Assembly: GCF_030552475.1 (NCBI RefSeq)
Contig: NZ_JAUPED010000007.1
Coordinates: 1-64,000, forward strand
Length of the DNA: 64,000 nt
Source: Mariniflexile sp. AS56
GTDB lineage: Bacteria; Bacteroidota; Bacteroidia; Flavobacteriales; Flavobacteriaceae
Reading direction: 5' to 3'
Part shown: piece after piece, positions 9,854 through 46,297 of the stretch
Position numbering within the stretch: position 1 is the stretch's first letter
Layout of the letters: the number at the start of each line of letters is the position of its first letter
The notes under the pieces: model-generated
Seen by the model: only the letters and a program-made list of their open reading frames with translations
Database searches by the model: none
Told to the model about the DNA's origin: nothing
Position numbers and translations under genes: made by a program

Positions 9854-10670
9854 TTCACATCAACATTTTTGGCATTATAGCCCTGTAAAACATGACTGGA
9901 TAGATGATGGTATGTCGGTTATTAGAAGAGATTTTACACCTTCAAATTTAAAGACCGTTTATAATGAAAATGGTATAGATGGTTGTATCGCAGTTCAAGC
10001 CGATCAAACATTAGATGAAACCGAATTTTTACTCGATTTGGCTTCAAAAAACGATTTCATCAAAGGCGTTGTGGGTTGGGTAGATTTAAGAGGTGAAGAC
10101 ATTGAAGATGTTTTACAAGAATACAGCCGTTATCAAAAAATAAAAGGATTTAGACATGTCGTTCAAGGCGAAGCAGATAATAATTTTTTATTGCGTCCTA
10201 ACTTTTTACGAGGTATTTCAGCTTTAGAAAAACATGGTTTTACTTATGATATTCTCATATTTCCACATCAATTAGGAGCGGCTATCGAGTTTGTAAAGGA
10301 GTTTCCTAATCAGAAATTTGTAATCGATCACATCGCTAAACCCTATATTAAAGATGGCTTTTTTGAAGGATGGAAAGTTTTAATAAAAGAAATCGCAAAA
10401 CATGAAAATGTATTTTGCAAATTATCGGGCATGATTACCGAAGCTGATTTTAAAACATGGACACCAATACAAATAGAACCCTACATGCAGGTGGTTTTAA
10501 ATGCTTTTGGAAGCAAAAGAGTTTTATTTGGTTCCGACTGGCCCGTTTGTTTAGTTGCGGGAAATTACAAACAAGTTAAACATTTAGTAACACATTTTAT
10601 AGCAGAATTAAGCACCAGCGAACAAGCCGATATTTTGGGCCAAAATGCTATAAAATTTTATAATTTATAA
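9843..10670 (+). CDS. Amidohydrolase, probable L-fuconolactonase
   Basis: This 275-residue TIM-barrel metal hydrolase belongs to the amidohydrolase-2 / COG3618 group, whose best-known members open L-fucono-1,5-lactone or related sugar lactones. Visible features are the metal-binding start VIDSHQHFWHY (residues 2-12), FVIDHIAKPYI in mid-protein and VLFGSDWPVC near residue 223 carrying the catalytic Asp. It acts in the cytoplasm between the sugar dehydrogenase (lactone producer) and the dehydratase (aldonate consumer). The ATG at 9843 lies within the end of the UxaB-like gene, and the next gene starts one base after its stop. The fucose assignment depends on the FucP and mutarotase neighbours; rhamnono- or galactonolactone are alternatives. 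Confidence 0.8.
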   Translation: MVIDSHQHFWHYSPVKHDWIDDGMSVIRRDFTPSNLKTVYNENGIDGCIAVQADQTLDETEFLLDLASKNDFIKGVVGWVDLRGEDIEDVLQEYSRYQKIKGFRHVVQGEADNNFLLRPNFLRGISALEKHGFTYDILIFPHQLGAAIEFVKEFPNQKFVIDHIAKPYIKDGFFEGWKVLIKEIAKHENVFCKLSGMITEADFKTWTPIQIEPYMQVVLNAFGSKRVLFGSDWPVCLVAGNYKQVKHLVTHFIAELSTSEQADILGQNAIKFYNL

Positions 10671-10671
10671 T

Positions 10672-11463
10672 ATGGATTTAGGATTAAAAAACAAAGTTGT
10701 TGTGGTAACAGGCGCTGCTGGAATTCGAGGAAGCATTGGGGAAACCATTGTTCAATCATTAGCGAATGAAGGTGCTATCCCTGTAATTGTTTGTAGAAAC
10801 GACAGAGGTTTTACTTACGAGAAAGAATTACAAGACAGGGGCATTGATGCGCTATTTGTAAAAACAGATTTGTCTGATTACACGCAAATAGAAGCTGCTG
10901 CAAAGGTAATAGAAAAAAAATACGGTAAAATTGATGCCTTAATAAATAATGTGGGTGTTAACGATGGTGCTGGTTTAGATGCCTCGGTAGATGATTTTAT
11001 GTATTCATTAAAATTAAATATGGTAAGTTACTTTGCTATGACTAAGTATTGTTTACCCATGCTAAAAAAAGCTAAGGGAAACATTTTAAACATTGGTTCT
11101 AAAGTGGCGCTAACAGGTCAAGGTGGTACTTCTGGGTACGCTGCTTCAAAAGGAGGTGTATTTGGGTTAACACGCGAATGGGCGGTTGATTTAATTAGCT
11201 TCGGCATTCGTTCTAACGCTATTGTTATTGCTGAAAGTTGGACACCAGCTTATGAAAACTGGATTAAAACATTAGATAATGGTGAAGAAAAACTTCAAGC
11301 TATTGTAAAGAAAATTCCATTAGAAAACAGAATGACGATGCCAAATGAAATTGCAGACCAATGTTTGTTTACTATTTCAGAAAAAGCATCACATACTACT
11401 GGGCAATTTCTTACCGTAGATGGCGGCTATGTTCATTTAGACCGGTCATTATTAACAGAATAA
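10672..11463 (+). CDS. Short-chain dehydrogenase/reductase, probable L-fucose or KDF dehydrogenase
   Basis: This 263-residue classical SDR has a cofactor loop VTGAAGIRGSIG (residues about 13-24, a slight variant of TGxxxGIG), NNVGVN at about 93-98, a catalytic Ser in NIGSKVAL, and Tyr/Lys in GYAASKGG. The C-terminus TTGQFLTVDGGY is family-typical. In bacterial non-phosphorylating fucose pathways SDR enzymes oxidise either L-fucose to the lactone or 2-keto-3-deoxy-L-fuconate at C4. With the Zn enzyme and UxaB homologue there are three oxidoreductases in this operon, so one of these two steps belongs to it. One base separates it from the amidohydrolase stop. Confidence 0.78.
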   Translation: MDLGLKNKVVVVTGAAGIRGSIGETIVQSLANEGAIPVIVCRNDRGFTYEKELQDRGIDALFVKTDLSDYTQIEAAAKVIEKKYGKIDALINNVGVNDGAGLDASVDDFMYSLKLNMVSYFAMTKYCLPMLKKAKGNILNIGSKVALTGQGGTSGYAASKGGVFGLTREWAVDLISFGIRSNAIVIAESWTPAYENWIKTLDNGEEKLQAIVKKIPLENRMTMPNEIADQCLFTISEKASHTTGQFLTVDGGYVHLDRSLLTE

Positions 11464-11497
11464 TTCAAGCTTAAACCAATCAAACAAAAACTATAAA

Positions 11498-12835
11498 ATG
11501 AGTCTTCCAAAGAAAATTCCAATTGTTAGAAAAGAACTTATACTTCCTTTTGTAATCATTACCTCATTATTCGCTTTATGGGGTATTGCCAATGATTTAA
11601 CCAACCCCATGGTGTCTGCATTTAAAAAAGTGATGCCCGAATTATCCAATATGCAAGCCTCTTTAGTGCAGTTTGCATTTTATTTTGGATACTTTTTTAT
11701 GGCGTTACCTGCAGCATTATTCATTAGAAAATACAGTTACAAATCAGGAATTATTTTAGGCTTGTCTTTATACGCCATTGGCGCTTTTTTGTTTTATCCA
11801 GCCGCAGCGAACCAAGAATTTAATTACTTTTTAATTTCCTTGTGGATCATCACCTGCGGATTGGCTTTTTTGGAAACCACATCAAACCCATTAATTTTAA
11901 TGCTTGGTGATAAAGAGACGGCGACACAACGATTAAACTTAGCACAGGCCTTTAACCCAATAGGGTCGTTAACAGGAATGATAATCGCTCAGGTTTTTAT
12001 TATTGGTGCTTTACGTTCCGATGATTATACTGTCGAAGCTTACAATGCACTAACATCCCAAGAATTAGCAACAATTCGAGAAAACGATTTAAGCATTATA
12101 AGTATTCCCTACATTGCATTAGGTGTTTTGGTTTTAGCAATTATGGTGATTATTATATTTACAAAAATACCAAAAACAGCTACCGAAGACAAAATGGGGC
12201 TTTCAGAATCTTTTAAAAAACTCTTTGCTAATAGAAATTATAAGCATGGCGTTATAGCTCAAGCTTTCTATGTAGGTGCACAAATTATGTGTTGGACCTA
12301 TATTTTTCAATATGTAGATCATTTAAATGCTGCACTTGGTTTGGAATTAACAGCTACTTATTACAATGTTACTGCCATGGTTTTATTTTTAACTGGCAGA
12401 TGGATTGGAACCGCATTAATGAAAACAATAAACCCATCTAAAATATTAATGCTCTTTGGAATTGGTGGGGTTGTTTGTTCCGCTGGAGCTATCCTGTTGT
12501 CTGGTATGGCAGGTCTGTTTTCATTAGTTGGCATCTCTATTTTTATGTCCATCATGTTCCCTACTATTTATGGTATTGCACTTAAAGATATGGGTGATGA
12601 AGCTAAGATTGGTTCTGCTGGTTTGGTTATGGCTATTGTAGGTGGCGCTCTAATGCCTGTTCTGCAAGGTGGTATTTTAGATATGGGTGGTTCAGGGTTT
12701 GCCGATGTTCAAATTTTAGGTTTTATACCAGAAGTGAAATTCTCTTTCATCCTGCCATTAATTTGTTTAGCCGTAGTAGCTCACTATGGGTTTGCTACTT
12801 ATAAAACTTCTAATAAAACCACACATGAGTACTAA
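11498..12835 (+). CDS. fucP: L-fucose:H+ symporter (FucP-type MFS)
   Basis: This 445-residue inner-membrane transporter of the major facilitator superfamily has about 12 hydrophobic segments. The first helix region FALWGIANDLTNPMVSAFKK and the ITCGLAFLETTSNPLILMLG segment match the FucP family, as does a cytoplasmic loop near residues 222-245. FucP couples uptake of L-fucose (also L-galactose or D-arabinose) to protons. It imports the monosaccharide released in the periplasm by the GH29, GH95 and GH141-like enzymes downstream. It follows the SDR gene by 34 bp and overlaps the mutarotase start by 11 bp. Glucose/galactose-type relatives exist, but the neighbours favour L-fucose. Confidence 0.85.
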   Translation: MSLPKKIPIVRKELILPFVIITSLFALWGIANDLTNPMVSAFKKVMPELSNMQASLVQFAFYFGYFFMALPAALFIRKYSYKSGIILGLSLYAIGAFLFYPAAANQEFNYFLISLWIITCGLAFLETTSNPLILMLGDKETATQRLNLAQAFNPIGSLTGMIIAQVFIIGALRSDDYTVEAYNALTSQELATIRENDLSIISIPYIALGVLVLAIMVIIIFTKIPKTATEDKMGLSESFKKLFANRNYKHGVIAQAFYVGAQIMCWTYIFQYVDHLNAALGLELTATYYNVTAMVLFLTGRWIGTALMKTINPSKILMLFGIGGVVCSAGAILLSGMAGLFSLVGISIFMSIMFPTIYGIALKDMGDEAKIGSAGLVMAIVGGALMPVLQGGILDMGGSGFADVQILGFIPEVKFSFILPLICLAVVAHYGFATYKTSNKTTHEY

Positions 12836-29717: not shown

Positions 29718-32129
29718 ATGAGAATAAATACAATTTCGTTAAAAACTCTAATATTAGCCATGGCTTTTATTAATCAAGTTTATGCCCAAAAAGAAGGCGT
29801 AGCGCCTAAACAATTTGCACATTCTTTTAAAGAATATAGTGCTAAGTATACTAACAATCAACTAGCGCCTATTTTAAAACCTGCTATAGAAATTTATGTT
29901 TCTGTAAAAGGAAATGACAAAAATAGTGGGACTAAAAAATCACCTTTTAAAACTATAGAAGCTGCTAGAAATAGTATAAGAACATTAAAGTCAACGAAAG
30001 GCTTGCCTAATGGAGGTGTACAAGTTATATTATTAGATGGCACTTATCATATTGATGAAACCATTAATTTTAACAAGGAAGATTCTGGTACGAATAAGGC
30101 ACCAATCGTATACAAAGGTGTTACTTCTAGTGGAGTTGTTTTATCCGGTGGTTTAAGTATCGATACCAATGAATTTAACGTTGTAGATGATAAGGAACTG
30201 ATTGAAAGATTAAACCCAAAAGCAAAAGGGAAAGTTATTAGTCTCGACCTTTCTAATAACCGTAGTATAGCAAATTACTTTCAAGGCTTTGGGGATTATG
30301 GTCAAATCTCTATGGATGGTTATATGTTGCAATTAGCACAATGGCCTAATAGAGGTTATAACCAAATAGGGGAAATTATTGAAAGTGGCCCAACAACACG
30401 ATGGTTAAAACCAGGGGAAGAGCCAATGCCTTTTAGTAGGGAAAACCCTACTGGCGGACAATTTGTTTTTAAAGAAGCTTTATCTCCTCTAGTTCAAAAA
30501 GAATTTGAAAGAACGGCAGACATGCAAGCTCAAGGATATTTTCATAATGATTGGTATTTTCAAGACGAACCAATAGGAGCAATTATAGAAAACTCTATTC
30601 AATTATTACATCATACTAGATACGGTATTTTAGACAAAATTAATAGTTTGCCACGCCGTGTTAGACTTTTTAATGTTTTAGCAGAATTAGATGAGCCAGG
30701 AGAATGGTATTTTGACAAAATAGAGAAACGTCTTTATGTTTGGCCAATAGATGGTTTTAAACGGGGAAAATCTACGTTAACTGTTATTGGGAGGCAACTA
30801 GAAGAAGGCGATAACCGTGGAGGCGAATTATTAAAATTAGAAAATACATCCTATTTAACGTTTCGTGATTTAATATTTGAAAATACCGATGATTTGGCTG
30901 TTAATATTAACGGTGGAGAATATAATTTATTAGCTAGTTGCATTTTTCGAAATGGAGATAGAAGTGGTGTGCGAATAAATAACGGAAAATATAATGGGAT
31001 TTCAGGATGTGATTTTTACGACTTATACAATGCTTTTAGCATTACAGGCGGTGATTTTAAAACTTTAGAAAACAGTTACAATTTTGCTACTAATAATATT
31101 ATTAGAAACTGCCGTTTGCGCGGTTATGGCGTCATTGGACTTTCGGGAGTAGGTTTATACTTCGCAAATAATTTATTACACAGCATGAATGGTGCAGTAA
31201 GTTATAATACCGTAAATCTTTTAATGGAATACAACGAGTTTTATAATATAGGCTACGAAATGGGTGATTTTAATGTTGCTTATTGTGGAGCACAATGGTA
31301 CACAATGAATAACGTCGTGCGTTATAATTTTGTACATCATTTGTTTGAACCAGGCGGGCATCCAGTAATGGCATTTCGTAATGATGACAACGGCCAAGGA
31401 ATGAAAGTTTATGGGAATGTTTTTTATCGTTCGGGTAGAGGAAGCGTACAATTTGACGGGGCATTAAACGATTTTCAAAATAATATTAGTCTAGATGTTC
31501 CTGTAATGTGGTGGACTTTAAAAAAGAAAAGCACTCGCGAAGCGATTGATGCACAATGGGGTGAATTGTCAAAATTCGGTAAAGAACTTCCTAGCGGTGA
31601 CAAAGGAGATTACTTATATATTACTGAAAAACTTATAGGAGAAAAAGGTTGGGAAAAAAGTCCTTGGATCGACACATTTCCAGAAATGAAGCTTACAATG
31701 GAAACTAATCCGTTCTCACAAACATACTGTAATGTAAATCTTAATTATGCCTATAAGGTACGAGAAGAGTTTCATATACATGGAGGTTCAGGCACTGTTG
31801 AAGGCATGGAAAGTAAAGCTGTGGGAGAATTTGATGATCTTCCAAAAGAAGGTGAATTTAGGTTGCCTAAAGCCATTTCCCTAAACGACTTTAAAGATAT
31901 TAAGTCGTTAGATTTTAATTTTAATAAGAATTTTAAACCCATGGATGGTTTTAAAACGATCCCGTTCGATAATATAGGTCTAATTGATAATGATTTTCGT
32001 GTTACTCCTTTTAATACGAAGGAGAACAGAAAATCAATATATAAACGTTTTGAAAATGAAGTTTCAGGAAGATATAACCCAGAAGTAGTTAATGCGAGGT
32101 ATCCTATACCAGGATATTTAAATCGCTAG
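29718..32129 (+). CDS. GH141-like beta-helix enzyme, tandem copy A
   Basis: This 803-residue secreted protein has a signal peptide ending near VYAQ, then IYVSVKGNDKNSGTKKSPFK and ILLDGTYHIDETINFNKEDS, the standard GH141-like N-terminus, followed by LAELDEPGEWYFDKIEKRLY and beta-helix coils (about 375-620). The acidic positions are present in altered context: YEMGDFNVAYCG in place of EGDGG, and RNDDNG. It is strongly similar along its whole length to the next gene, so the pair is a tandem duplication that has diverged. A fucosidase-type activity on sulfated oligosaccharides is inferred. The changed EGDGG motif may mean a different linkage specificity. Confidence 0.7.
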   Translation: MRINTISLKTLILAMAFINQVYAQKEGVAPKQFAHSFKEYSAKYTNNQLAPILKPAIEIYVSVKGNDKNSGTKKSPFKTIEAARNSIRTLKSTKGLPNGGVQVILLDGTYHIDETINFNKEDSGTNKAPIVYKGVTSSGVVLSGGLSIDTNEFNVVDDKELIERLNPKAKGKVISLDLSNNRSIANYFQGFGDYGQISMDGYMLQLAQWPNRGYNQIGEIIESGPTTRWLKPGEEPMPFSRENPTGGQFVFKEALSPLVQKEFERTADMQAQGYFHNDWYFQDEPIGAIIENSIQLLHHTRYGILDKINSLPRRVRLFNVLAELDEPGEWYFDKIEKRLYVWPIDGFKRGKSTLTVIGRQLEEGDNRGGELLKLENTSYLTFRDLIFENTDDLAVNINGGEYNLLASCIFRNGDRSGVRINNGKYNGISGCDFYDLYNAFSITGGDFKTLENSYNFATNNIIRNCRLRGYGVIGLSGVGLYFANNLLHSMNGAVSYNTVNLLMEYNEFYNIGYEMGDFNVAYCGAQWYTMNNVVRYNFVHHLFEPGGHPVMAFRNDDNGQGMKVYGNVFYRSGRGSVQFDGALNDFQNNISLDVPVMWWTLKKKSTREAIDAQWGELSKFGKELPSGDKGDYLYITEKLIGEKGWEKSPWIDTFPEMKLTMETNPFSQTYCNVNLNYAYKVREEFHIHGGSGTVEGMESKAVGEFDDLPKEGEFRLPKAISLNDFKDIKSLDFNFNKNFKPMDGFKTIPFDNIGLIDNDFRVTPFNTKENRKSIYKRFENEVSGRYNPEVVNARYPIPGYLNR

Positions 32130-32238
32130 TTAATAATAAATAATAGGACAGGTTTGGAGCTTGAAAACCGAATAGAAGAATGAATATGTTTGTATCTATC
32201 ATAAGGTTTTTTTGTAGACAGTTAGATGTCATAAATTA

Positions 32239-32263
32239 TAAATAAATAAATAAATAAATAAAA
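32239..32263. repeat. AAAT microsatellite before copy B
   Basis: About six tandem AAAT units lie 14 bp upstream of the ATG of the next gene. Four-base tandem repeats at this position can change length by slippage and alter translation initiation or promoter spacing. The tract is in noncoding sequence. Confidence 0.75.
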
Positions 32264-32276
32264 AAGTAACTTGAAT

Positions 32277-34721
32277 ATGAAATTATACGCAACAGGTTTG
32301 TTAGGAGCCTGTATGGTAATTATACTAGGAGCTACAAAAGCAGATGCTCAAGTAAATGTAGCAAACTTGAAAAATAAACCCCATTTTTATGAAGGGTATA
32401 GTGATACCTATACTAAAAATCAATTAGCTCCCATTTTAACACCAGGAAAAGTATTTTATGTTTCTGTAAATGGGAAAGATAAAAATAAAGGAACAAAAAA
32501 ATCGCCTTTTAAAACAATTGAAGCCGCAAGAAATGCTATAAGAATATTAAAGGCTTCAACAGGATTGCCTAAAGGCGGGATTCATGTGGTGCTATTCAAT
32601 GGAACATACAGAATAAATAAAAGTATAATATTTACAGATGAAGATTCTGGAACCAAGGAATCTCCAATCGTTTATCAAGGACTAGAGCAAGGAAAGGTTG
32701 TATTAACTGGAGGGTTAGAAATAAATACAGAACAGCTAAAAACGGTTTCAGAGAAAGCATTAATCAATAGATTGCACGATAAAGCCAAAGGACATGTTAT
32801 GAGCATTGACCTTTCAAATGAAGGTGTTTCATCTTATTTAAAGGGTGATGGTAAATACGGACAAATAGCTATGGATGGACATATGTTACAATTGGCACAA
32901 TGGCCTAACCGAGGATATAATCATATTGGAAAGATTGTGGAAGAAGGCCCAACCACCCGTTGGTTAAAACCCGGAGAATCCGCTATGCCGTATACTAAAG
33001 AAAACCCAACAGGGGGTAAATTCACCTTTAAAGAAAGCTTATCGCCTAAAGTTTTAAGTGAGTTTAAGCGAACAGGAGATATGCGTGCACAAGGCTATTT
33101 TCATAACGATTGGTATTTTCAGGATGAGCCAGTTGGAAAAATCGATGATAATATAGTTCAGTTATTACATCACATGCGTTACGGCATTGTAGATAAAATT
33201 AAAACGGTTCCACGTCGGGTTAGACTTCTCAATGTTTTAGCAGAATTAGATGAGCCCGGAGAATGGTATTTTGACACAAGTGAAGAGCGTTTATATGTTT
33301 GGCCCATAGAAGGTTTTAATACTAAAAGCTCATCATTAACGGTTATAGGTGAAAGTGAAGAGTCTATAGATAAAAATTTAGAATTGCTTTTAGAAAGCAC
33401 TAAGCCACCAAAAATACAGGCACTTATTAGTTTAGAAAACACCGCGTTTTTAACGTTTCGTGATTTTGTATTAGAAAATACCGGCGAGTTGGCTTTTAGC
33501 ATATCGGGAGGCCAATATAATCTATTGGCAGGAAGTGTTATACGAAACGGATTGGGCAAAGGCGTTTCCATTAGAGGCGGACAGTATAATGGTATTTCAG
33601 GATGCGATTTTTACGATTTATACTCGGCCTTTAATATTGATGGAGGCAATTTAGTGTCGCTTGAGTGGAGTTATAATTTTGCTACCAATAATAATATACA
33701 TCATTGTAGATTACGAGGTTATGGGGTTATAGGCCTTTCGGGAGTTGGTATTTATTTTGCTCATAATTTAATACATGACATGAATGGCGCTGTAAGCTAT
33801 AAAACAGTAAATCTGTTAATGGAATATAATGAGTTCTATAATGTAGGTTATGAAATGGGCGATTTTAACGTGGCGTATTGCGGTGCACAATGGTATACGA
33901 TGAATAACGTATTACGTTATAATTTTGTACACCATTTAATAGAACCAGGAGGTCATCCCATTACAGGATTTAGAAATGACGATAATGGCGCGGGCATGAA
34001 AGTATACGGAAATGTGTTTTACCGTTCCGGAAGAGGAAGTTGCATTTTTCATGGCTTCTTAAATGATTTTCAAAATAATATAAGTATGGATTCATCAATA
34101 ATGTGGTGGACGCTTAAAAAGCCAATCACCCCAGAAGGAATTCAAGAAAGATGGGATGGCTTATCTCAGTTTGGCACCGATTTACCAAAGGGAGATAAAG
34201 GCGACTATATATACATTATGGAACAGGTTATAGGAAAAGAAGGCTGGAAAAAAGGCGCATGGAAAGAACAATTTCCAGAGTTAGAAGCAGCTATAGATAA
34301 AAACCCATGGGCACAAACGTTTTGTACGGTTGCAGATAATTACGCATTTGATATTAATAAGCCTATATATATTCACGGTGGTTCAGGAACTGTTGAAGGT
34401 TTAGAGAGTAAAAAAGTTGGTGAATTTAAAGATTTACCAAGTGATGAGATTTTTGAATATCCACAGCGTATTGATATGGATGCTTTTAAAGATGTTAAAA
34501 GTTTAAATTTTAGTTTTAAAGATGAATTTAAACCAATGAAAGGCTTTAAAACCATTCCATTTGGCGAAATAGGATTAAAGAAAGATTCATTTAGAACTCA
34601 AGTGCCTAATAAAGAGGATTACCGAAGCAAAGTTTACGATCATTTTAAAAATGATAAAGGAGGGAATTACAACGCAGAAGTTGTTAATGGTAGATACCCA
34701 AAACCAAGTTATTCTAATTAA
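32277..34721 (+). CDS. GH141-like beta-helix enzyme, tandem copy B
   Basis: This 814-residue secreted enzyme parallels copy A nearly block for block: FYVSVNGKDKNKGTKKSPFK, LAELDEPGEWYFDTSEERLY, YEMGDFNVAYCGAQWYTMNN, FRNDDNGAGMKVYGNVFYRS. I take ATG 32277 as the start, with signal peptide MKLYATGLLGACMVIILGAT; a TTG two codons upstream (32271) is also open. It has an insertion of roughly 15 residues near 370 (SEESIDKNLELLLESTKPPK) compared with copy A. Function is inferred as for copy A: glycan cleavage in the periplasm. No lipobox and no T9SS domain are present. Confidence 0.7.
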   Translation: MKLYATGLLGACMVIILGATKADAQVNVANLKNKPHFYEGYSDTYTKNQLAPILTPGKVFYVSVNGKDKNKGTKKSPFKTIEAARNAIRILKASTGLPKGGIHVVLFNGTYRINKSIIFTDEDSGTKESPIVYQGLEQGKVVLTGGLEINTEQLKTVSEKALINRLHDKAKGHVMSIDLSNEGVSSYLKGDGKYGQIAMDGHMLQLAQWPNRGYNHIGKIVEEGPTTRWLKPGESAMPYTKENPTGGKFTFKESLSPKVLSEFKRTGDMRAQGYFHNDWYFQDEPVGKIDDNIVQLLHHMRYGIVDKIKTVPRRVRLLNVLAELDEPGEWYFDTSEERLYVWPIEGFNTKSSSLTVIGESEESIDKNLELLLESTKPPKIQALISLENTAFLTFRDFVLENTGELAFSISGGQYNLLAGSVIRNGLGKGVSIRGGQYNGISGCDFYDLYSAFNIDGGNLVSLEWSYNFATNNNIHHCRLRGYGVIGLSGVGIYFAHNLIHDMNGAVSYKTVNLLMEYNEFYNVGYEMGDFNVAYCGAQWYTMNNVLRYNFVHHLIEPGGHPITGFRNDDNGAGMKVYGNVFYRSGRGSCIFHGFLNDFQNNISMDSSIMWWTLKKPITPEGIQERWDGLSQFGTDLPKGDKGDYIYIMEQVIGKEGWKKGAWKEQFPELEAAIDKNPWAQTFCTVADNYAFDINKPIYIHGGSGTVEGLESKKVGEFKDLPSDEIFEYPQRIDMDAFKDVKSLNFSFKDEFKPMKGFKTIPFGEIGLKKDSFRTQVPNKEDYRSKVYDHFKNDKGGNYNAEVVNGRYPKPSYSN

Positions 34722-34877: not shown

Positions 34878-36299
34878 ATGAAATTTTTAAAAATACACCA
34901 AATTCGTTTGCTTCTCATGTGTTTGGCCACTTTCAATCTGTCCATGGCGCAAGAAGCGGAGCTTAGCAATCTTTCATTAAATGACCTAAATGCCTTTGAT
35001 AGTCCAGGGGAAAATTGGGAGATTACTTCAGCCTTTATTTCAGATTTCGCTAAGCCTTGGGGTATTAAAAAATTAGATAAAGGCAGCGGTGTACTTGTGA
35101 ATAATTTAACTAAAGTTCACCGGTCTCATTTAATTACTAAAAAAGAATTTGGTGATATTTATCTCGAATTAGATTTTATGATGGATAAAGGCTCCAATGC
35201 GGGGGTTTATTTACAAGGACGCTATGAAATACAATTATTAGATAGTTGGAGAAAAGAAGATCCCATTTTTTCAGATTGTGGAGGAATTTATCAACGTTGG
35301 AATTCAACAGCAGAAGTAAAAGGCTTTGAAGGTGTCGCTCCTTTACAAAATGCAACGCGTGCCCCTGGATTATGGCAACAGCTTCGTATCCGTTTTCGTG
35401 CACCGCGTTTTAATTCTGATGGAAAAAAAATAGCCAATGCTCGTTTCGAAGAGGTTTACCTTAATGATGTTCTAGTTCAGCAGCAAGTGGAAGTTTTAGG
35501 ACCAACTAGATCTGCTAAATTTGGTGATGAAAAATCAATGGGGCCTTTAATGATTCAAGGAGATCATGGAAAGCTCGCAATTCGTAATATAAAATATAGT
35601 GACTTTACATACGACGTGCCAAGTAATAATAAAAGAGCTAATGGCTTAATTATTTTAAATCCAGATAAAAAACCTTATTTATTAAGGAGTTTTCTTGATT
35701 ATCAAGGTGAAAAGTTAAACTATGTGGTGTCCATTGGAACACATGAAGGTATTCATTATTCTTACGATGTTTCTCAAGGGTCTTTGTTACAAGTTTGGAG
35801 AGGACGCTTTATGGATGTGACCGATATGTGGCATAGTCGCGGTATTTCGCAGGTAGCAATGCCTTTAGGAAGTGTAGTTCCGCTTTTTAGAGGACCTTCA
35901 ATAGCTTATTTATCAAATAAAGATGCTGAGTGGCCAGAAAACGTTAATTTGGAAGATATGCACGATACGAGCTATATACTCGATCAAAAAGGAATTCCTA
36001 CGTTTAAATATAAGTTAAAGGGTGTTTCTGTAAGGGATAAAATTGAGTTAGAAAATAACGGAGAATCCTTAAGAAGGAATTTGGCTATAGAAAACTCTAC
36101 AGAAAATTTGTATTGTAGAGTAATTTCTGCAAAACAATTAGAACTTGTTAGCAAAAATTTATATCGAGTAAACGGTATGTATTATGTGCGCTTAAATCAA
36201 AACTCTAGTCCTATAATTAGGGAAACAGCAAAAGGGCAAGAGATGCTTTTAACTCTTGGTAAGTACGAAAAATCATTCTCTTATTCCATTATTTGGTAA
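34878..36299 (+). CDS. DUF1080 (3-keto-disaccharide hydrolase-like) two-domain protein
   Basis: This 473-residue secreted protein has a signal peptide ending near LSMAQ. Residues about 30-240 form a DUF1080 jelly-roll (GDIYLELDFMMDKGSNAGVY, LQGRYEIQLLDSW, GLWQQLRIRFRAPRF, GPLMIQGDHGKLAIRNIKY). This fold is linked to 3-keto-glycoside hydrolases and lyases. Residues about 250-473 are a second beta domain with SFLDYQGEKLNYVVSIGTHE, GIHYSYDV and LQVWRGRFMDVTDMWHSRG, like a domain often found near cytochrome-linked dehydrogenases. It is 17 bp from the beta-propeller/cytochrome gene, so the two are probably one functional unit: dehydrogenase makes a 3-keto sugar, DUF1080 cleaves it (inference). A plain glycan-binding role is the alternative. 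Confidence 0.7.
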   Translation: MKFLKIHQIRLLLMCLATFNLSMAQEAELSNLSLNDLNAFDSPGENWEITSAFISDFAKPWGIKKLDKGSGVLVNNLTKVHRSHLITKKEFGDIYLELDFMMDKGSNAGVYLQGRYEIQLLDSWRKEDPIFSDCGGIYQRWNSTAEVKGFEGVAPLQNATRAPGLWQQLRIRFRAPRFNSDGKKIANARFEEVYLNDVLVQQQVEVLGPTRSAKFGDEKSMGPLMIQGDHGKLAIRNIKYSDFTYDVPSNNKRANGLIILNPDKKPYLLRSFLDYQGEKLNYVVSIGTHEGIHYSYDVSQGSLLQVWRGRFMDVTDMWHSRGISQVAMPLGSVVPLFRGPSIAYLSNKDAEWPENVNLEDMHDTSYILDQKGIPTFKYKLKGVSVRDKIELENNGESLRRNLAIENSTENLYCRVISAKQLELVSKNLYRVNGMYYVRLNQNSSPIIRETAKGQEMLLTLGKYEKSFSYSIIW

Positions 36300-36316
36300 T
36301 TAAAAACCTAAACTTA

Positions 36317-38230
36317 ATGACTACAGATACGAATATGTTTTGTAAAAAAACAACATTATTATGGGTGAGTATCTTAACGATTGCAATGACATTCGTTGGA
36401 CAAGCTCAAGATAAAAAAGATCTTCCAGTTGAACCAATGGAAGATGATTATTATAAAATTAATAGTATTCCAATCCCAGAAGGTATGATGTTGGGAATTG
36501 GTGGTATTGCTTTGTTGCCAAATGATAAATTGGCAATAAGTACACGTCGAGGTGAAATTTGGACAATCTCTAATCCGTATATGAAAAACGGACAAAAACC
36601 TAGTTTTAAACTCTTTGCAAAAGGATTGCACGAGCCTTTAGGTTTAGCTTATCGTAATGGAGCGCTTTATACCGCACAACGTCCAGAACTAACCAGATTA
36701 AAAGACTTGGATGGAGATGGGGTAGCAGATGAGTACAAAACAGTTTACTCATTACATCTATCTGGAAATTATCATGAGTATGCGTATGGTCCTGTATTCG
36801 ATAAAGATGGTAATATGATAGTTACGCTTAATTTAGCTTGGAATAAAGGCATGCAAAGTTTGGTGAAATGGCGTGGTTGGATGCTTAAAATTTCAGAAGA
36901 AGGAAAAATGGAACCTTTTGCTACTGGTTTACGTTCTCCGGCAGCATTTGGACTTAATAAGGATGGAGATATTTTTTATGCTGAAAATCAAGGTGGTTGG
37001 ATTGGTTCTGGCTACATAACAGCGTTGGAGAAAGGAGATTTTGCGAGTCACCCAGCAGGGTTAAAATGGTCGAGTGAACCAGGATCTTCTGTTAAATTAA
37101 AAGTAGAAGATATTCCTGATACAGGAAAACCACAATTTGAAGTAGCAAAAAATATTGCAGGTATTAAAACACCTTCTGTATGGATTCCTCATGGAAATAT
37201 GGGGGTTTCAACTTCCGGTATGCTGTTGGACAGTCGTGGAGACTTTGGACCTTTTAAAGATCAAATTTTTGTTGGTGATCAGGGAAGAAGTTTAATTAAT
37301 AGAGTATTTCTTGAAAAAGTACAAGGCGTATACCAAGGAGCTGTATTTTCTTTTGTCAAAGGTTTTGCTTCAGGAGTATTTCGTATGTGTTGGGGTTCTG
37401 ATGGAAGTATGTTTGTTGGTATGACCGCAAGAGGTTGGGGCTCTACCGGTGGTGATATTTATGGTTTACAAAGACTGGTTTGGAATGGAAAAGTGCCTTT
37501 TGAAATAAAAGAAATGCGCGCGATGCCAGATGGTTTTGAACTTGAATTCACAAAGCCAGTAGATAAAACTACAGCATCTGCCATAGCGTCTTATACTTTT
37601 AACAATTTTACTTATAAATATCATAAAACCTATGGAAGTCCTGTAATACATAAAGGGGATTGTAATGTTACGGCAATTAAAATTTCTGATGATGGAACTA
37701 CAGTGCGTATAGCCATTGATAATATGAAAGAAGGTTTTATTCATGAAGTTAATGTAAACGGAATTCGCTCGGAAGATGAAAAACATCCGGTACTTCATCC
37801 AGTTGGTTATTATACATTAAATAAAATACCAGATGGAAACAAATTGGAAACTCAGATTTTTAAAGCGGCAATACAAAAAAACAAGCTACACGTAGTTGAC
37901 AAGAAAGAAAATAATACGAAAACGAAACAGGTTTCTGAAATTAATAAAAAGAAAAACTTAAAAGAAAACAATACAATAACACTCGAACAAATTCGGCCAT
38001 TACTCATAAAACATACTTGTGTAGCCTGTCATGATACTGACAAAAAACAAGTAGGACCATCATTTAAAGAAATCGCTAAACGTAAGTATTCCGCAGATAA
38101 GATGGCAAAACTTATTTACGAACCACAGCCAGAAAACTGGCCAGATTACGCAACACCTATGCCTCCGATGACTCATGTTCCTAAGGAAGATGTGGACAAG
38201 ATTGTGTCGTTTATAAAATCTTTAGAGTAA
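36317..38230 (+). CDS. Beta-propeller (PQQ/sorbosone-dehydrogenase-like) protein with C-terminal cytochrome c
   Basis: About 637 residues, exported (signal within MFCKKTTLLWVSILTIAMTF; ATG 36317 or 36335). Residues about 40-420 look like a soluble sugar dehydrogenase propeller (GIGGIALLPNDKLAISTRRG, GLHEPLGLAYRNGALYTAQR, LKDLDGDGVADEY, GDQGRSLINRVFLEK). The C-terminal 90 residues are a class I cytochrome c with heme motif CVACH (Cys568) and a probable axial Met in ATPMPPM. It likely oxidises a sugar or glycoside in the periplasm and passes electrons through its own heme to the respiratory chain. An unusual lysine-rich linker (about 535-555) joins the domains. Cofactor (PQQ or other) cannot be read with certainty. 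Confidence 0.75.
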   Translation: MTTDTNMFCKKTTLLWVSILTIAMTFVGQAQDKKDLPVEPMEDDYYKINSIPIPEGMMLGIGGIALLPNDKLAISTRRGEIWTISNPYMKNGQKPSFKLFAKGLHEPLGLAYRNGALYTAQRPELTRLKDLDGDGVADEYKTVYSLHLSGNYHEYAYGPVFDKDGNMIVTLNLAWNKGMQSLVKWRGWMLKISEEGKMEPFATGLRSPAAFGLNKDGDIFYAENQGGWIGSGYITALEKGDFASHPAGLKWSSEPGSSVKLKVEDIPDTGKPQFEVAKNIAGIKTPSVWIPHGNMGVSTSGMLLDSRGDFGPFKDQIFVGDQGRSLINRVFLEKVQGVYQGAVFSFVKGFASGVFRMCWGSDGSMFVGMTARGWGSTGGDIYGLQRLVWNGKVPFEIKEMRAMPDGFELEFTKPVDKTTASAIASYTFNNFTYKYHKTYGSPVIHKGDCNVTAIKISDDGTTVRIAIDNMKEGFIHEVNVNGIRSEDEKHPVLHPVGYYTLNKIPDGNKLETQIFKAAIQKNKLHVVDKKENNTKTKQVSEINKKKNLKENNTITLEQIRPLLIKHTCVACHDTDKKQVGPSFKEIAKRKYSADKMAKLIYEPQPENWPDYATPMPPMTHVPKEDVDKIVSFIKSLE

Positions 38231-38293
38231 ATTTTAATATGGAACCCGTTAGTATTGCTGAAAAAAATAAAACTGAATAATAAATCGAAAACT

Positions 38294-39778
38294 ATGAATT
38301 TAAACAATATTAAAAAAGCAGCTATTAATGTGTTAGCTATATGTATGTTAGTATCGTGTAGCGACTCTAAAGTTAATAAGGATTTACCACAAGCCAATAA
38401 TGAAAATGAATCCACTAAAACTTTAGCCGAACTACAACATGAGTTTGTAAATACTAGATATCAGGCATATTTTCATTATAACATGGCTACATTTAAAAAC
38501 TTAAACTCTGATACTTATCAAGGTAGGGCAGATGGTACAGAGCCTGTGTCAATGTTTGCTCCAACTGGGTTAAATATAGATAATTGGGTAAAAGCAGTTA
38601 AGGTCGCACGCATGGAAGGTGGTTGGTTAACCACAAAGCATCACGGTGGGTTTTGTTTGTGGGATAGTGAATTTACCGATTATGATGTAGCGTCATCAGC
38701 AGTTAAAACGGATATCGTTCGTGAGTTTACTACTAAATTTAGAGAGGCAGGCTTAAAAGTAGGTTTATATTATTCTATTTTAGATTATCATCATAGCGTT
38801 GAAAATGGCAAAACTTCAGTCAAGGACGTGCAGTTTTTAAAAAATCAAATAACAGAGCTTTTAACCAATTATGGTAAAATTGATTATATCAATTTTGATG
38901 GATGGAGTTCATGGCCAACCACACCAAATTTTGATGATGTTCAATACGGAGAAATTTTGGCTTTGGTAAAAAAAATACAGCCAGAGTGTTTAATTATTTC
39001 GCATACTTATGAGTCCAACTTGTCTCATGCCGAAGTGCCATTTGCAGATGCAGCAGGTCGAGATTACCCGTATCACCCAGATTATTTACGTCCAACCGCG
39101 GCATCAGATTTTTTACAATACGATTGGTGGTGGGATAATTCCGATGAAATGGGAGTTAGAAAAAGTGTAGACTATATTTTAGGAAAATTAAATAGTTATA
39201 ACTCTCATAATTCGGTTTACATTCTTAATATATCTCCAAATATAGCAGGTGATATTGATGATGACGTGTTTGTCCGTTTAAAAGAAGTTGCTAATGTTTG
39301 GGAGAAACCAGAAGATATTCCAATGGATGCCAATTGGGGGTATCAATACGATACCACAAAAAATTTGGCATTTATGAAACCGTGCGAACAGTCTAGCATG
39401 AATAAATTTGTTCGTGATAAACGAGCTTATCCACGTGCTGAAATTGCTGTAGATGGTGTAACTGAAGGTAACGCTATGATGGAACAAACTTCTTGGACGC
39501 TTGAAGAAGACACTCCATGGTGGCGTGTAGATTTAGGGGATCATCACGTCGTTAATGAAATAACTATTTATAATCGTACAGATATCGATGCCAATCAATT
39601 AAAAGATTTTACGGTGTCACTACATGATGCTGCAGGTAATGTCGTATGGAAATCGGTTCAGAGGCAAGTTCCAACTCCTTCAGTTAAAATCCCAGTAGAA
39701 AGTAAAAAAGGACGTTTTGTGAAAGTACAATTAAATGGAACTGGTGCTTTGGCCTTGGCGGAGGTTATTGTGAAATAG
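38294..39778 (+). CDS. GH29 alpha-L-fucosidase with C-terminal F5/8-like domain, lipoprotein
   Basis: This 494-residue lipoprotein (LAICMLVSC, Cys22) has a GH29 TIM barrel with WLTTKHHGGFCLWDS (about 111-125), the nucleophile motif YINFDGW (Asp202) and LNISPN. The C-terminal 150 residues (MKPCEQSSMNKFVRDK, then WWRVDLGDHHVVNEITIYNR) form an F5/8 type C (discoidin/CBM32-like) binding domain. I start at ATG 38294; upstream codons to 38255 are not a credible N-terminus. It differs from the GH29 at 18730 and is nearer the branch acting on linked fucose (GH29-B-like, inference). It releases alpha-L-fucose at the membrane surface. Confidence 0.85.
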   Translation: MNLNNIKKAAINVLAICMLVSCSDSKVNKDLPQANNENESTKTLAELQHEFVNTRYQAYFHYNMATFKNLNSDTYQGRADGTEPVSMFAPTGLNIDNWVKAVKVARMEGGWLTTKHHGGFCLWDSEFTDYDVASSAVKTDIVREFTTKFREAGLKVGLYYSILDYHHSVENGKTSVKDVQFLKNQITELLTNYGKIDYINFDGWSSWPTTPNFDDVQYGEILALVKKIQPECLIISHTYESNLSHAEVPFADAAGRDYPYHPDYLRPTAASDFLQYDWWWDNSDEMGVRKSVDYILGKLNSYNSHNSVYILNISPNIAGDIDDDVFVRLKEVANVWEKPEDIPMDANWGYQYDTTKNLAFMKPCEQSSMNKFVRDKRAYPRAEIAVDGVTEGNAMMEQTSWTLEEDTPWWRVDLGDHHVVNEITIYNRTDIDANQLKDFTVSLHDAAGNVVWKSVQRQVPTPSVKIPVESKKGRFVKVQLNGTGALALAEVIVK

Positions 39779-39819
39779 CTGATTGAGTTATTCAGAAATA
39801 AAAATCCGAATTAAATTTT

Positions 39820-39841
39820 TTCGAATAGAGGGATATTCGAA
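39820..39841. repeat. 8-bp inverted repeat in the GH29-GH95 gap
   Basis: TTCGAATA at 39820-39827 and TATTCGAA at 39834-39841 are perfectly complementary, 6 bp apart. A GAATTAAA element occurs on each side. No T run follows, so an operator or mRNA structure is more likely than a terminator. Confidence 0.4.
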
Positions 39842-39904
39842 TTAAAGTTTCTTATGATTTACAGGTTATAGTTTTTGAAATAGAAAATGATATAATATTA
39901 ATAG

Positions 39905-42361
39905 ATGGCAATAATAATGAATTTTAAAGTTTTAGGTTTAATTTTTTTAGGCTTATTGATATCGTGTTCGGCATCAAAACCCAAAGATGTTTTATTGATA
40001 AGTAAAGAACCGGCCCAAAAGTGGCAAGATGGACTTGTTGCGGGAAATGGAATACAAGGAATAATGGTTATGGGAGACCCCCTTAACGAATCCATAATTC
40101 TTAATCATGAGAGATTATGGGTACCCGCTCAGGATGTAGCTTTTGACGTGCCTGACATGACTAGGGTTGTTGATGAGGTTAGGGAGATGGCTAAAAAAGG
40201 AGATTTTGACCAAGCAGGAACTAGGTTATATACTGCTTTTGGAGAGGAGAATGCTAAACTGTTCCCAGAGACTGCTTTCAAAAGAATAGGTGGTAAACAA
40301 AGCCCTCGTTTTGGAATGAACTATGTACACCCAGGGGCCTATCTTAAAATTAACATGACAAAAAATGGGGAAATATCTGATTATACACGCTCTGTTAATT
40401 TAAGTAATGGAGAGATTACTGTCCGCTGGAAGGACGATAAAGGTTTTTGGTCTAGAAACGGTTTTGTTTCCAGAAGTGATGATGCTACCATCATGAAAAT
40501 TAAAAATGAGAGTGGAGCTAAAATTAGTTGCACTTTTTCAATTAATGAAGTCCCTGGCTATGATATAAAAGATATTAATAAACCACAAATAGTTGTGGAT
40601 GTTGATGGAATTTATTTTCATACAAGTTATAAAAACAAGTATTGGCTTGATGAACCTGAAGGGTATCATATTTTAACAAAAATTGATGCTCAGGGTGGAA
40701 CAGTGATTGTAGAAGATAATCAAATTATCGTTGAAGGAGCGGATGAAGTTGTTTTAAAAACAATCACTGACTTTCTTCCTAAGTATTCTCTAAAATCAAG
40801 AACGGCATTGAGCGATAAATTGGATGCAGTATTGTCTTATGATAAAAGTTTATTAAGTCATGATAAAATTCACCGAGAATTATTTGAACGTGTGGGTTTC
40901 AGATTAACAGATCATGAAAATCAGACATATTATAGCGAAGAGTTAATTGAAAATGCGAAAAATAACGGCCCTTCACCTGAGTTCTTAGAGGCTATTTTTG
41001 CAGTAGGTCGATATGCGCTTATTTCCTCTTCAGGTGAGTTGCCACCATCGTTAATGGGGATTTGGGGTAACACTTGGGAGCCCGCATGGTGGGGCCATTA
41101 TACCAATGATTCTAACGTAAATTTAGCAGTTTCCCATGGTAATACTGGTAATTTACCGGAGATGATGGAGTCATATTTTTCATGGGTTGAATCGCTTTAT
41201 CCGTATTGGGAACGTAATGCAGAAAGATTATATGGGGCTAGAGGTTATATGGGGGCGATCGCACATGATTGGCGACATGGACTCGCAATTGCCGGCTGGC
41301 ACGAATGGACTGGTAGCGCAGGCTGGCTTGCTGCATATTTTATTGAAAATTATGCTATAACTAATGATGAAATATTTTTAAAAAATAGAGTAGTCCCTTT
41401 ACTTGAAAATATTGCTTTGTTTTATGAAGACTTTTTACAAGGTATGGAAGGTGATGATGGGTATTATTTAATATATCCAAGTGTGTCTCCAGAAAATAGG
41501 CCCTCTAATATGGGTGGTATACCTGAATTTAGAACGGCTCCTAATGCAGCTTCCGAAATAGCGATAATCAGACAGACTTTGGTAAGTTTAATAGAAGCAT
41601 ATGAGGTATTGAATATTAAAGATGAACGAATCGCTGTCTTGCAGTCAATTATTAATAAGTTGCCTCCATATCGCATAAATAAAGATGGGGCAATTGCAGA
41701 GTGGAGCCATCCTGATATTGCTGACAATTATAATCATAGACATAATTCACATCTTTATGCAGTTTATCCAGGAATTGATATTAATCCTGCAACTCCAGAG
41801 TTGTATGATGCTTCAAAAATAGCTATTAAAAAACGCCTAGAGACAGGTCAAGGTGATAGATCAGCACATGGTTTTATGTATCAAGGTTTTTTTGGTGCCC
41901 GCTTGCAGGACCCTTCCATTCCTTGGAATTCATTTAATACCATAGCAAAAGAATCATTTTTGTTTTCTAGTTTTATCACATCACACAATCCCAATCATAA
42001 GGTTTATAATTTGGATGCGACTTTATCAATGCCCGCTATTTTAAGTGAAATGTGTGTTTATTCCCGTCTTGGCGTTTTGAATATTTTACCGGGAATTCCG
42101 TTAGACAAAATACCTACGGGAAAACTAACTGGTCTGCTTGCTAGAAATGCAATAGTTGTTGATGAATTATCATGGAATGACCTTGATAAACAGGTGATTA
42201 TGAAGCTGAGAAGTTCTATTGATCAATCTGTAATTATAGAAAGTAGACTAGATATTTCTAACATTAAAGGAAATGGAGTAAGTCTTAATGAGGCTGGTTG
42301 GTCTATTAAATTAGATAAGAATAAATTAACAACTATTGAAATTTTATATTTAAATAAGTAG
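39905..42361 (+). CDS. GH95-family fucosidase/galactosidase, lipoprotein
   Basis: This 818-residue lipoprotein (GLLISC followed by SASK) has the GH95 layout: N-terminal beta-sandwich (WQDGLVAGNGIQGIMVMGDP, about residues 38-57), helical linker and an alpha/alpha barrel. Family motifs visible are LMGIWGNTWEPAWWGHYTND, then SNVNLAVSHGNTGN with the N-x-N pair, and GQGDRSAHGFMYQGFFGARL where the Asp corresponds to the catalytic base region of GH95. SVSPENRP is also conserved. These inverting enzymes remove alpha-1,2-L-fucose or L-galactose. Details around the motifs differ from textbook GH95 (for example HGNTGN in place of QMNYWP), so specificity may be new. It could start at ATG 39905 or 39917. 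Confidence 0.82.
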   Translation: MAIIMNFKVLGLIFLGLLISCSASKPKDVLLISKEPAQKWQDGLVAGNGIQGIMVMGDPLNESIILNHERLWVPAQDVAFDVPDMTRVVDEVREMAKKGDFDQAGTRLYTAFGEENAKLFPETAFKRIGGKQSPRFGMNYVHPGAYLKINMTKNGEISDYTRSVNLSNGEITVRWKDDKGFWSRNGFVSRSDDATIMKIKNESGAKISCTFSINEVPGYDIKDINKPQIVVDVDGIYFHTSYKNKYWLDEPEGYHILTKIDAQGGTVIVEDNQIIVEGADEVVLKTITDFLPKYSLKSRTALSDKLDAVLSYDKSLLSHDKIHRELFERVGFRLTDHENQTYYSEELIENAKNNGPSPEFLEAIFAVGRYALISSSGELPPSLMGIWGNTWEPAWWGHYTNDSNVNLAVSHGNTGNLPEMMESYFSWVESLYPYWERNAERLYGARGYMGAIAHDWRHGLAIAGWHEWTGSAGWLAAYFIENYAITNDEIFLKNRVVPLLENIALFYEDFLQGMEGDDGYYLIYPSVSPENRPSNMGGIPEFRTAPNAASEIAIIRQTLVSLIEAYEVLNIKDERIAVLQSIINKLPPYRINKDGAIAEWSHPDIADNYNHRHNSHLYAVYPGIDINPATPELYDASKIAIKKRLETGQGDRSAHGFMYQGFFGARLQDPSIPWNSFNTIAKESFLFSSFITSHNPNHKVYNLDATLSMPAILSEMCVYSRLGVLNILPGIPLDKIPTGKLTGLLARNAIVVDELSWNDLDKQVIMKLRSSIDQSVIIESRLDISNIKGNGVSLNEAGWSIKLDKNKLTTIEILYLNK

Positions 42362-44846: not shown

Positions 44847-46297
44847 ATAGAAGTTTAAAAGTATTATTAGGTTGTGTGTTTCTTTTACTATTAATTGTGA
44901 TGTTTTCTGCCCATTCAAAATTAAACAACATTCAAAAGCCAAATGTGTTTTTCCTTATTGTTGATGATTTGCGACCAGAATTAAATTGATTTGGGAAGAC
45001 TCAAATTATTTCCCCAAATATAGATGCACTTGTCAAAGATACCATGGTTTTTAATAGAGTTTTTTGTAATGTTTAAGTATGTGGAGCATCAATAGCAAAT
45101 TTGTTAACTGGGCTGTACCCAACCTAATCGATTTACTAATTATGTGGCGAGAGTGGAAAAGGATGCACCAGGCATTATTACTTTACCCGCACATTTTAAT
45201 AACAATGGGTATTTTACTACGGCAATAGGTAAAATTTTTCATCACCCTGATGATGCACTTCAAAGTTGGTCTGAAATGACTTATCGTTCCGATTATCCCA
45301 ATAGCTTAAAACAGCAGGAACTATGGCGTGATTATTAGTCTCTCGATAATAATTGGACAAAAGAAAAAGATCTTCCTCTGGGTGCTGCAGGTCCAGCTTG
45401 GGAAGCAGCTGATGTGGCAGATACTATATATTACGATGGTAAAACTACCAAATTGACACTCAATAGGTTGAGAGAGCTTTCTAAATCTAAACACCATTTT
45501 TCTTAGGAGTTCGTTTTATTAGACCACATTTGCCTTTTAATGCACCTAAAAAATATTGGGATTTGTATGAGAAAGAAAATATTGAATTCGCAGAAAACCC
45601 TTTTATGCCTGTAAATTCACCTCGTGATGCATGGTTTAATTATAGAGAGCTACGCGGATATTCAAATATTAGAAAAGATACATTGCCCATACCAGATGAC
45701 CAGGCCAAAATGCTACGTCATGGGTATTATGCATGTATTAGTTATATTGATGAACAAATAGGTCAGATTATTAAGGCGTTCAAAAAACTCAAATTATACG
45801 ACAACACTATAATTGTTGATATTGGCGATCATGGTTGGAGTTTGGGCGAACACTCATTATGGTGTAAGCATTCCTGTTTTAGTAATGCTTTGCGTACACA
45901 GCTCATTGTTAAATCTACCAATACCAATGCCGGAAAAACAGATGCAATGACTAGTTTTGTCGATATTTACCCTTCATTATGCGAATTGGTTGGTCTTGAG
46001 AAACCATCTCATCTCGATGGTCAAAGTTTTATTCCAATTTTAAAAAATCCGAAGATAGAAGTAAACAAGTATATTTTTTGCAGATGGGAAAATGGAGAAA
46101 CTGTAAAATCCGATAAGTTTATTTATACCGAGTATTTCGATAAAAAGGGAAATGTTAGATCGCAGATGCTCTATAATCACGAAAAAGATCCAAATGAAAA
46201 TGAAAATGTTGTTGATGATGGAGAAAACATAGAAATAGTGAAAGAATTAAAGAATGTATTGTCTAATCATTTTCAGAATAGATGCATTTATAGGTAA
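44847..46297 (+). pseudogene. Decayed iduronate-2-sulfatase-like S1 sulfatase
   Basis: Readable pieces in order: a hydrophobic leader, KPNVFFLIVDDLRPELN then a stop, ISPNIDALVKDTMVFNRVFC, then a stop in place of the usual Pro before VCGASIANLLTG, DAPGIITLPAHFNNNGYFTT with IGKIFHHPDDALQSWSE, a TAG near 45336, a frameshift near 45510, then GVRFIRPHLPFNAPKKYWDL and VDIGDHGWSLGEHSLWCKHS. This order matches the S1 subfamily of iduronate-2-sulfatase-like enzymes. The formylglycine motif reads CGASI rather than CGASR, so the active site is gone. At least three stops and two frameshifts make it a certain pseudogene. Confidence 0.85.

Follow-up and report, generated by a model that had tools for sequence, protein, structure and literature searches.

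A DUF1080 protein paired with a propeller–electron carrier protein: a candidate module for oxidative glycan cleavage in Mariniflexile sp. AS56

Introduction

Could an exported DUF1080 protein and a propeller protein with its own haem, encoded side by side in a fucosidase–sulfatase locus, break glycosidic bonds by way of oxidation? The question is raised by two neighbouring genes in positions 1 to 64,000 of contig NZ_JAUPED010000007.1 of Mariniflexile sp. AS56 (assembly GCF_030552475.1), a 64,000-nucleotide stretch that we call the window. We refer to the DUF1080 protein as P1 and to the propeller protein encoded downstream as P2. A preliminary description of this DNA had proposed that the pair oxidises a fucoglycan fragment in the periplasm, feeds electrons to respiration, and then cleaves the resulting keto-glycoside. 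After following up this proposal, we put at roughly one half the probability that P1 and P2 form a periplasmic module that oxidises a glycan fragment and then cleaves it.

DUF1080 proteins have been connected to 3-keto-glycoside chemistry before. According to the available excerpts of PMC9007349, Caulobacter has, close to its lactose 3-dehydrogenase, a DUF1080 gene that is important for lactose use and whose product is proposed to be a 3'-ketolactose hydrolase; the same excerpts name BT2157 of Bacteroides thetaiotaomicron as a 3-ketotrehalose hydrolase. The 3-keto-glycoside eliminase of PMC10628242 is a Mn-dependent TIM barrel, and the available excerpts of that paper do not mention DUF1080. 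Among the literature matches listed, mostly outside subscription journals, we found no description of a DUF1080–propeller pair.

Results

P1 and P2 are encoded by adjacent genes

Read by eye, the N-termini of both proteins resemble Sec signal peptides. P1, which starts with ATG, matches PF06439 (3keto-disac_hyd, the former DUF1080) with an E-value of 9.4e-26 and 91.4 bits against a Pfam cut-off of 26.8. No Pfam family exceeded its cut-off in the C-terminal domain of P1; DUF6797 appeared weakly, below its cut-off, in two relatives. Trp47, Tyr116, Asp122, Ser123, Trp166, and Gln167 of P1 are unchanged in 64 of 64 sequences, a pattern that fits an active site and that a conserved binding site could also produce.

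Taking the ATG at 36317 as the start of P2, the two genes are separated by 17 bp (36300–36316); the open reading frame (ORF) caller picks a TTG at 36293, which overlaps P1, and a later ATG is also possible. P2 scored 34.4 bits for DUF7133 (PF23500; cut-off 27) and 30.4 bits for Cytochrom_C (cut-off 21.3) in Pfam, and 43.2 for TIGR02604 (PVC-type heme-binding CxxCH), which is under the cut-off of 122.2. Pfam matched neither GSDH nor a GMC domain in P2, and a PDB profile search with the P2 family matched solely cytochrome c-type chains. The ORF list reproduced the coordinates of both genes exactly as first described, and the early picture of an exported pair, 17 bp apart, with a propeller and a CVACH haem motif in the second protein, was confirmed by Pfam and the coordinates, and by eye for export.

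The pair recurs across the phylum surveyed

We counted as P1-type those loci that passed both profile tests; loci had been fetched because of a match to either P1 or P2. A propeller gene lies directly downstream in 63 of 64 such loci, at 62 of them within 250 bp and at one (L171) in an open frame that overlaps; the exception is L150. Chance adjacency of P1 and P2 is excluded because the pairing recurs in this way, and the proposed partnership of the two proteins, which was to be checked by co-occurrence elsewhere, is borne out to this extent.

Surveys of wider sets of genomes gave similar results. Among the matches listed in a survey of 299 genomes of the family, where a locus had to match P1 in its DUF1080 part as well as in its C-terminal part and counts were read by eye, a propeller was encoded just downstream on the same strand in 32 of 32 loci. 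A scripted recount found 35 of 35 paired (31 family loci, 3 Pontibacter loci, and the window). In a survey of 395 genomes of the phylum, in which other families are represented, an adjoining propeller match was present in 43 of 44 P1-type loci (read by eye from the best three candidates per genome; the 44 include four loci already counted and one split over two contigs).

Five propellers close to P2 but lacking a P1 that passed both tests were left uncounted. The DNA upstream of one is masked (L076), two adjoin a diverged P1 (L172, L173), and no P1 was found beside the other two (L151, L088). More distant propellers, in frames of 785–1000 amino acids, occur in the family survey without a P1 of the same type. 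Scans of viral contigs for the P1 and P2 families yielded no relatives. A 2289-residue frame in genome G227, considered as a fusion, was rejected since it crosses a masked stretch.

The genome of strain AS56 has a second pair (L046, 9199–13053), which is cupredoxin-tailed, carries a PA14-sized insert, and lies beside sulfatase genes and a GH29-like gene. Four other loci (L050, L057, L058, L076) have a CxxCH-containing ORF of ~750 residues and an ORF of 216–224 residues near the propeller. L050 encodes a DUF7133–HEAT–cytochrome c protein plus HlyIII, and the large ORF of L058 has the same architecture, a second haem propeller thereby adjoining the pair.

Electron carriers are exchanged at the end of the propeller protein

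A carrier motif ends all 62 of the propellers counted, those within 250 bp of P1. In 26 it is a cytochrome c and in 36 a cupredoxin, with none lacking both; Pfam confirmed the cupredoxin of L041 as PF00127. The haem that had been assigned to the second protein is thus one form of an electron-transfer tail common to the paired propellers. In a tree of 72 propellers, P2 of the window groups with those of L044, L045, and L167 (support 100/99), all of them cytochrome-tailed and from loci whose P1 lacks PA14. The cupredoxin label changes three times on this tree, and at least two of these changes are forced by supported branches; the program flags long branches at L077, L172, and L088. Such an exchange of carriers between otherwise similar proteins would be expected if electron transfer were their conserved job.

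P1 also varies in architecture. Its relatives are mostly ~600–660 residues long, and 57 of 64 have a PA14-sized insert between the DUF1080 and C-terminal domains, with P1 of the window among the 7 of 64 that do not. Pfam scored PA14 over the cut-off in two relatives (L016, L062) and below it in two more (L008, L050), and PA14 structures were matched by the P1 family profile in a PDB profile search.

The propeller is related to quinoprotein aldose dehydrogenases

Comparison of the P2 propeller family with a GSDH/aldose dehydrogenase profile using hhalign gave a probability of 98.6 and an E-value of 1.3e-15 over 298 columns. The latter profile comprised 32 sequences, 28 of them relatives found with PF07995 and four from pair neighbourhoods; a comparison with shallower profiles gave a probability of 3.4. 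We take the classical ligand set for pyrroloquinoline quinone (PQQ) to be His144, Arg228, Asn229, Lys377, Arg406, and Arg408. Arg206 of P2 falls at the place of the Arg in the R-N pair of the aldose dehydrogenases, so that the Arg228 type is kept, and Arg356, which is retained in 76 of 78 family members, aligns no more than one residue away from the second Arg in the RxR motif (Arg408 type). Gln121, Glu124, His153, Arg206, Asn224, and Arg329 are unchanged in all 78.

A copper centre like that of nitrous oxide reductase was considered and rejected on the conservation of His residues. Alignment A1 (13 sequences) has just three invariant His residues in the propeller part, namely His105, His153, and His292, and most of 12 distant relatives do not keep His105 and His292.

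P1 shares its C-terminal domain with single-chain propellers

Distant relatives of P2 include 11 single-chain proteins of 781–1000 residues, in which an N-terminal domain is followed by CxxCH and then by the propeller; a twelfth single chain (L089) has no CxxCH. Pfam matched cytochrome c in two of the single chains (L077, L078) and PA14 in one of these (L078). When the 11 N-terminal domains were aligned with the C-terminal domains of 64 P1 proteins, hhalign returned a probability of 94.2 and an E-value of 1.1e-7, compared to a probability of at most 0.2 for control profiles of DUF1080, PA14, and the immunoglobulin (Ig)-like domain. A plain hidden Markov model search at an E-value of 1 did not find this link between the two sets of domains. 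The hhalign result agrees with the early impression that the second domain of P1 is kin to domains of cytochrome-linked dehydrogenases. One lineage has this building block fused to a propeller and the other has it fused to DUF1080, which suggests, from sequence, that P1 would dock on P2 by way of the C-terminal domain of P1, in direct physical contact.

An enolase-superfamily-like protein is encoded directly after the single-chain propeller at three loci, as identified by Pfam MR_MLE_C in L077 and L079 and by BLAST in L080.

Genes of 3-keto-glycoside type lie near some relatives

At two loci (L084, L087), DUF1080 and Gfo/Idh/MocA genes directly adjoin the single-chain propeller gene, and at another (L061) genes of the same two families lie near the pair. 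Upstream of the pair at L047 are two GMC dehydrogenases, a Gluconate_2-dh3 subunit, and another DUF1080 protein. LacA is a GMC-type enzyme and hence like the GMC genes of L047. At a cut-off weaker than that of the neighbourhood counts given below, an extra DUF1080 gene is also present at L043, and Gfo/Idh/MocA-like genes at L042 and L043. Proteins of 1120 residues with ThuA, GSDH, PKD, and cytochrome c domains are encoded at most two genes away from the pair at L061, L069, and L072.

The fucan locus is one of many settings of the pair

Coordinates of P1, P2, their domains, and their immediate neighbours are collected in Table 1.

Table 1. Positions of the pair, its domains, and adjoining genes in the window
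Feature	Position	Strand	Basis
P1, exported DUF1080 (PF06439, 3-keto-disaccharide hydrolase family) protein, 473 aa, PA14-less	34878..36299	+	ORF list, Pfam
DUF1080 domain of P1, residues 70–239	35085..35594	+	Pfam
C-terminal domain of P1, residues 250–473	35625..36296	+	Profile match 387–610; hhalign
P2, exported propeller–Ig-like–cytochrome c protein, 637 aa	36317..38230	+	ORF list, Pfam
DUF7133/GSDH-like beta-propeller of P2, ~residues 50–400	36464..37516	+	Pfam DUF7133 at residues 92–334; hhalign
Ig-like domain of P2, ~residues 401–520, named by look, without Pfam match	37517..37876	+	Conserved block, alignment A1
Cytochrome c domain of P2	38009..38224	+	PF00034, E 1e-6; CVACH at 38018–38032
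Two GH141-like right-handed beta-helix proteins, directly upstream	29718..34721	+	Beta_helix over cut-off, GH141_M below cut-off
GH29 and GH95 fucosidases, directly downstream	38255..42361	+	ORF list, Pfam

A Pfam scan of the window ORFs found three GH29 proteins together with GH95, GH97, GH141-like proteins, sulfatases, two SusC/SusD pairs, and sugar-catabolism genes, and the fucosidase–sulfatase setting is therefore real. Near the 64 pair loci as a whole, we counted SusC-like genes at 20, sulfatases at 14, GH29 at 5, GH95 at 2, and GH141-like genes at 2; these counts favour the window, which spans 64 kb compared to at most ~22 kb for the other loci. Five genomes (G001, G002, G019, G169, G248) encode relatives of the GH141-like neighbour with at least 64% identity, and the pair does not occur wherever this neighbour does. 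The GH141-like relatives lie beside the pair in G002 and on a contig other than that of the pair in G001. In G019, G169, and G248, whose relatives are 66–76% identical, searches at 1e-10 for the P1 C-terminal domain and at 1e-20 for the propeller matched nothing. P1 was detected at 1e-40 in one of six genomes of the genus. As most pairs lie elsewhere, some genomes with the GH141-like gene have no pair, and only one of six genomes of the genus has P1, the pair is not specific to fucoidan. We thus dropped the idea that it belongs to fucoidan degradation as such, on the neighbourhood counts and on G019, G169, and G248, and the fucoidan pathway first envisaged for it is weakened accordingly. The pair is a general module taken up by some fucan loci.

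A phage-type tyrosine integrase gene lies left of the locus (window 2816–4012, minus strand). Given the integrase and the presence of P1 in one of six genomes of the genus, the locus may be on a mobile island. At 45530–46297 of the window, a 255-residue ORF matches only the C-terminal part of a sulfatase and may be truncated or frame-broken. The run of genes at 5662–12835 encodes a zinc dehydrogenase, proteins of altronate/galactarate dehydratase and mannitol dehydrogenase type, an amidohydrolase, a short-chain dehydrogenase, and a major facilitator superfamily (MFS) protein, and looks like a non-phosphorylating fucose pathway. In L044, the closest relative locus, an ORF at 8811–9296 shares, over 70 residues, 81% identity with the GH141-like gene that precedes the pair; it may be a remnant of that gene in a locus where the pair persists.

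Discussion

A proposed mechanism and the evidence against it

We propose that a pocket in the P2 propeller would oxidise a hydroxyl of a glycan fragment, perhaps at C3, and that electrons would flow from the propeller through the cytochrome c of P2 itself to respiration. P1, docked on P2 by its C-terminal domain, would then split the keto-glycoside by elimination or hydrolysis, as proposed for DUF1080 proteins. The substrate may be a fucose-containing or other desulfated fragment.

Several observations weigh against this mechanism. At the cofactor site of P2, Gly323 and Ser207 replace Lys377 and Asn229, Arg406 (the first Arg of RxR) has no counterpart, and His153 is one residue off the place of the catalytic His144 in the alignment, such that P2 retains no more than part of the classical PQQ ligands. 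With residues as conserved as those of an active site but ligands that differ, the P2 site is not a textbook PQQ site; from the residues alone, its cofactor may be PQQ in altered form, a relative of PQQ, or another and perhaps new cofactor. Structure models built from four-sequence alignments had a mean predicted local distance difference test (pLDDT) score of 38.3 for P2 and 33.6 for P1 and are unusable, and a pqqC search of the AS56 genome gave no match, with its controls silent as well. Distant propellers can be carrier-less, as shown by L088 (505 residues) and by six phylum matches whose frames of 499–548 residues stop short of the carrier part. One DUF1080 protein, THTE_1561, is cited as a plain endo-xanthanase/lichenase in the available excerpts of PMC9007349. 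Genes of 3-keto type accompany a minority of the pairs: as raw counts near the 64 pair loci, BLAST at 1e-10 found extra DUF1080 genes at 6, Gfo/Idh/MocA genes at 2, and GMC genes at 2, and Gfo/Idh/MocA, GMC, ThuA, and Gluconate_2-dh3 were all unmatched among the 31 window ORFs of at least 200 residues. With none of these genes present, the scanned ORFs show no pathway that a 3-keto sugar could follow.

The oxidise-then-cleave proposal of the preliminary description therefore survives in part. The partnership, the redox tail, and the dehydrogenase kinship stand, the last without the full classical PQQ ligands; the 3-keto link holds for a minority of related loci and finds no echo in the scanned window ORFs; and the connection to fucoidan has lost ground.

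Competing explanations

The rival that survives best, which we nevertheless consider unlikely, is that P2 is a C1 aldose dehydrogenase that converts sugar to lactone and draws energy from free or reducing-end sugars, with P1 as a glycan-binding or docking partner and no bond cut. GSDH and aldose dehydrogenases act at C1, and the propeller is kin to that family. The PA14 domain is often sugar binding, which suits the frequent PA14-sized insert in P1 relatives (57 of 64), and the DUF1080 fold resembles lectin-like jelly rolls. Against a purely binding P1 are its six residues invariant in 64 of 64 sequences, which fit an active site although a binding site could be conserved as well, the presence of 3-keto genes near some relatives, the proposal from genetics that DUF1080 proteins act on 3-keto sugars, and the citation of BT2157 as a 3-ketotrehalose hydrolase (excerpts of PMC9007349).

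We regard as improbable a second explanation, in which P1 is an ordinary glycoside hydrolase and P2 an unrelated redox protein kept adjacent for regulation or expression. The activity cited for THTE_1561 and the proposal, in the available part of PMC5673643, that DUF1080 proteins hydrolyse the xanthan backbone are compatible with it, and P1 sits among hydrolases in the window, but if the two proteins had no joint function, it would be difficult to account for the shared C-terminal domain and for adjacency in 63 of 64 loci and across several families. Least probable, and in our view very unlikely, is a propeller that no longer catalyses and acts instead as scaffold or sensor, like the hedgehog-interacting protein of the same fold, which appeared among the relatives of a neighbouring GSDH protein; the partial loss of classical PQQ ligands and the distant carrier-less propellers would fit, but the carrier motif is kept in 62 of 62 paired propellers, and exchanged among them, and six polar propeller residues are invariant in 78 of 78.

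Relation to known systems

The oxidise-then-cleave mechanism has a close parallel in LacABC and DUF1080 of Caulobacter crescentus, where, in the excerpts of PMC9007349, periplasmic sugar oxidation, proposed splitting by a DUF1080 protein, and neighbouring genes recur in the same combination; LacABC is membrane-bound there, whereas P2 combines a propeller with a cytochrome c in one chain and has relatives with a cupredoxin. Subunits of LacABC type lie near one relative (L047), and the 31 window ORFs contain none. Such systems have GMC or Gluconate_2-dh3 subunits beside DUF1080.

P1 and BT2157, the latter named in the excerpts of PMC9007349, share the PF06439 family. No Gfo/Idh/MocA enzyme of the kind that would partner BT2157 was matched among the 31 window ORFs, which separates the two systems. 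The oxidant partners of the BT2157 type are Gfo/Idh/MocA enzymes that use nicotinamide adenine dinucleotide (NAD). The propeller–carrier oxidant sets the pair apart from 3-keto systems with NAD or GMC oxidants.

Soluble aldose sugar dehydrogenase, or quinoprotein glucose dehydrogenase B (PF07995, GSDH), has a homologous propeller with an Arg of the Arg228 type and a nearly matching His; P2 differs in having no equivalents of Lys377, Arg406, and Asn229 and in its fused carrier and DUF1080 partner gene. TIGR02604 and DUF7133 proteins belong to the same propeller superfamily as P2, which differs in falling under the TIGR02604 cut-off. Planctomycete-specific cytochrome c proteins, as presented in the available part of PMC5615132, are likewise haem proteins encoded beside sulfatase genes, and a role with carbohydrates is suggested for them; they differ in belonging to PSCyt/PSD domain families, and DUF1080 has 0 occurrences in the main text of that paper.

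Implications

It is possible, if still doubtful, that the pair represents a third class of glycoside-oxidising cleavage, besides the NAD-type Gfo/Idh/MocA and the GMC/LacABC systems. Its oxidant would be a respiratory dehydrogenase of propeller type, either with a changed quinone site or with a novel cofactor, that has a swappable haem or copper outlet and a near-obligate docked DUF1080 partner; the class would probably be spread through Bacteroidota and, in the window, recruited into a sulfated-fucan locus for bonds closed to hydrolases. The exchange of cytochrome c and cupredoxin puts the electron-transfer reading to a natural test, and the small size of the pair permits direct expression and assay. 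If the chemistry holds, many bacteria of the phylum would own a respiration-coupled way of breaking glycosidic bonds, one that is easy to miss, since neither P1 nor P2 is classed among the classical glycoside hydrolases. For fucan loci, such a module would provide a way past sulfated or branched residues at which hydrolases are blocked, and would bear on the persistence of seaweed fucoidan.

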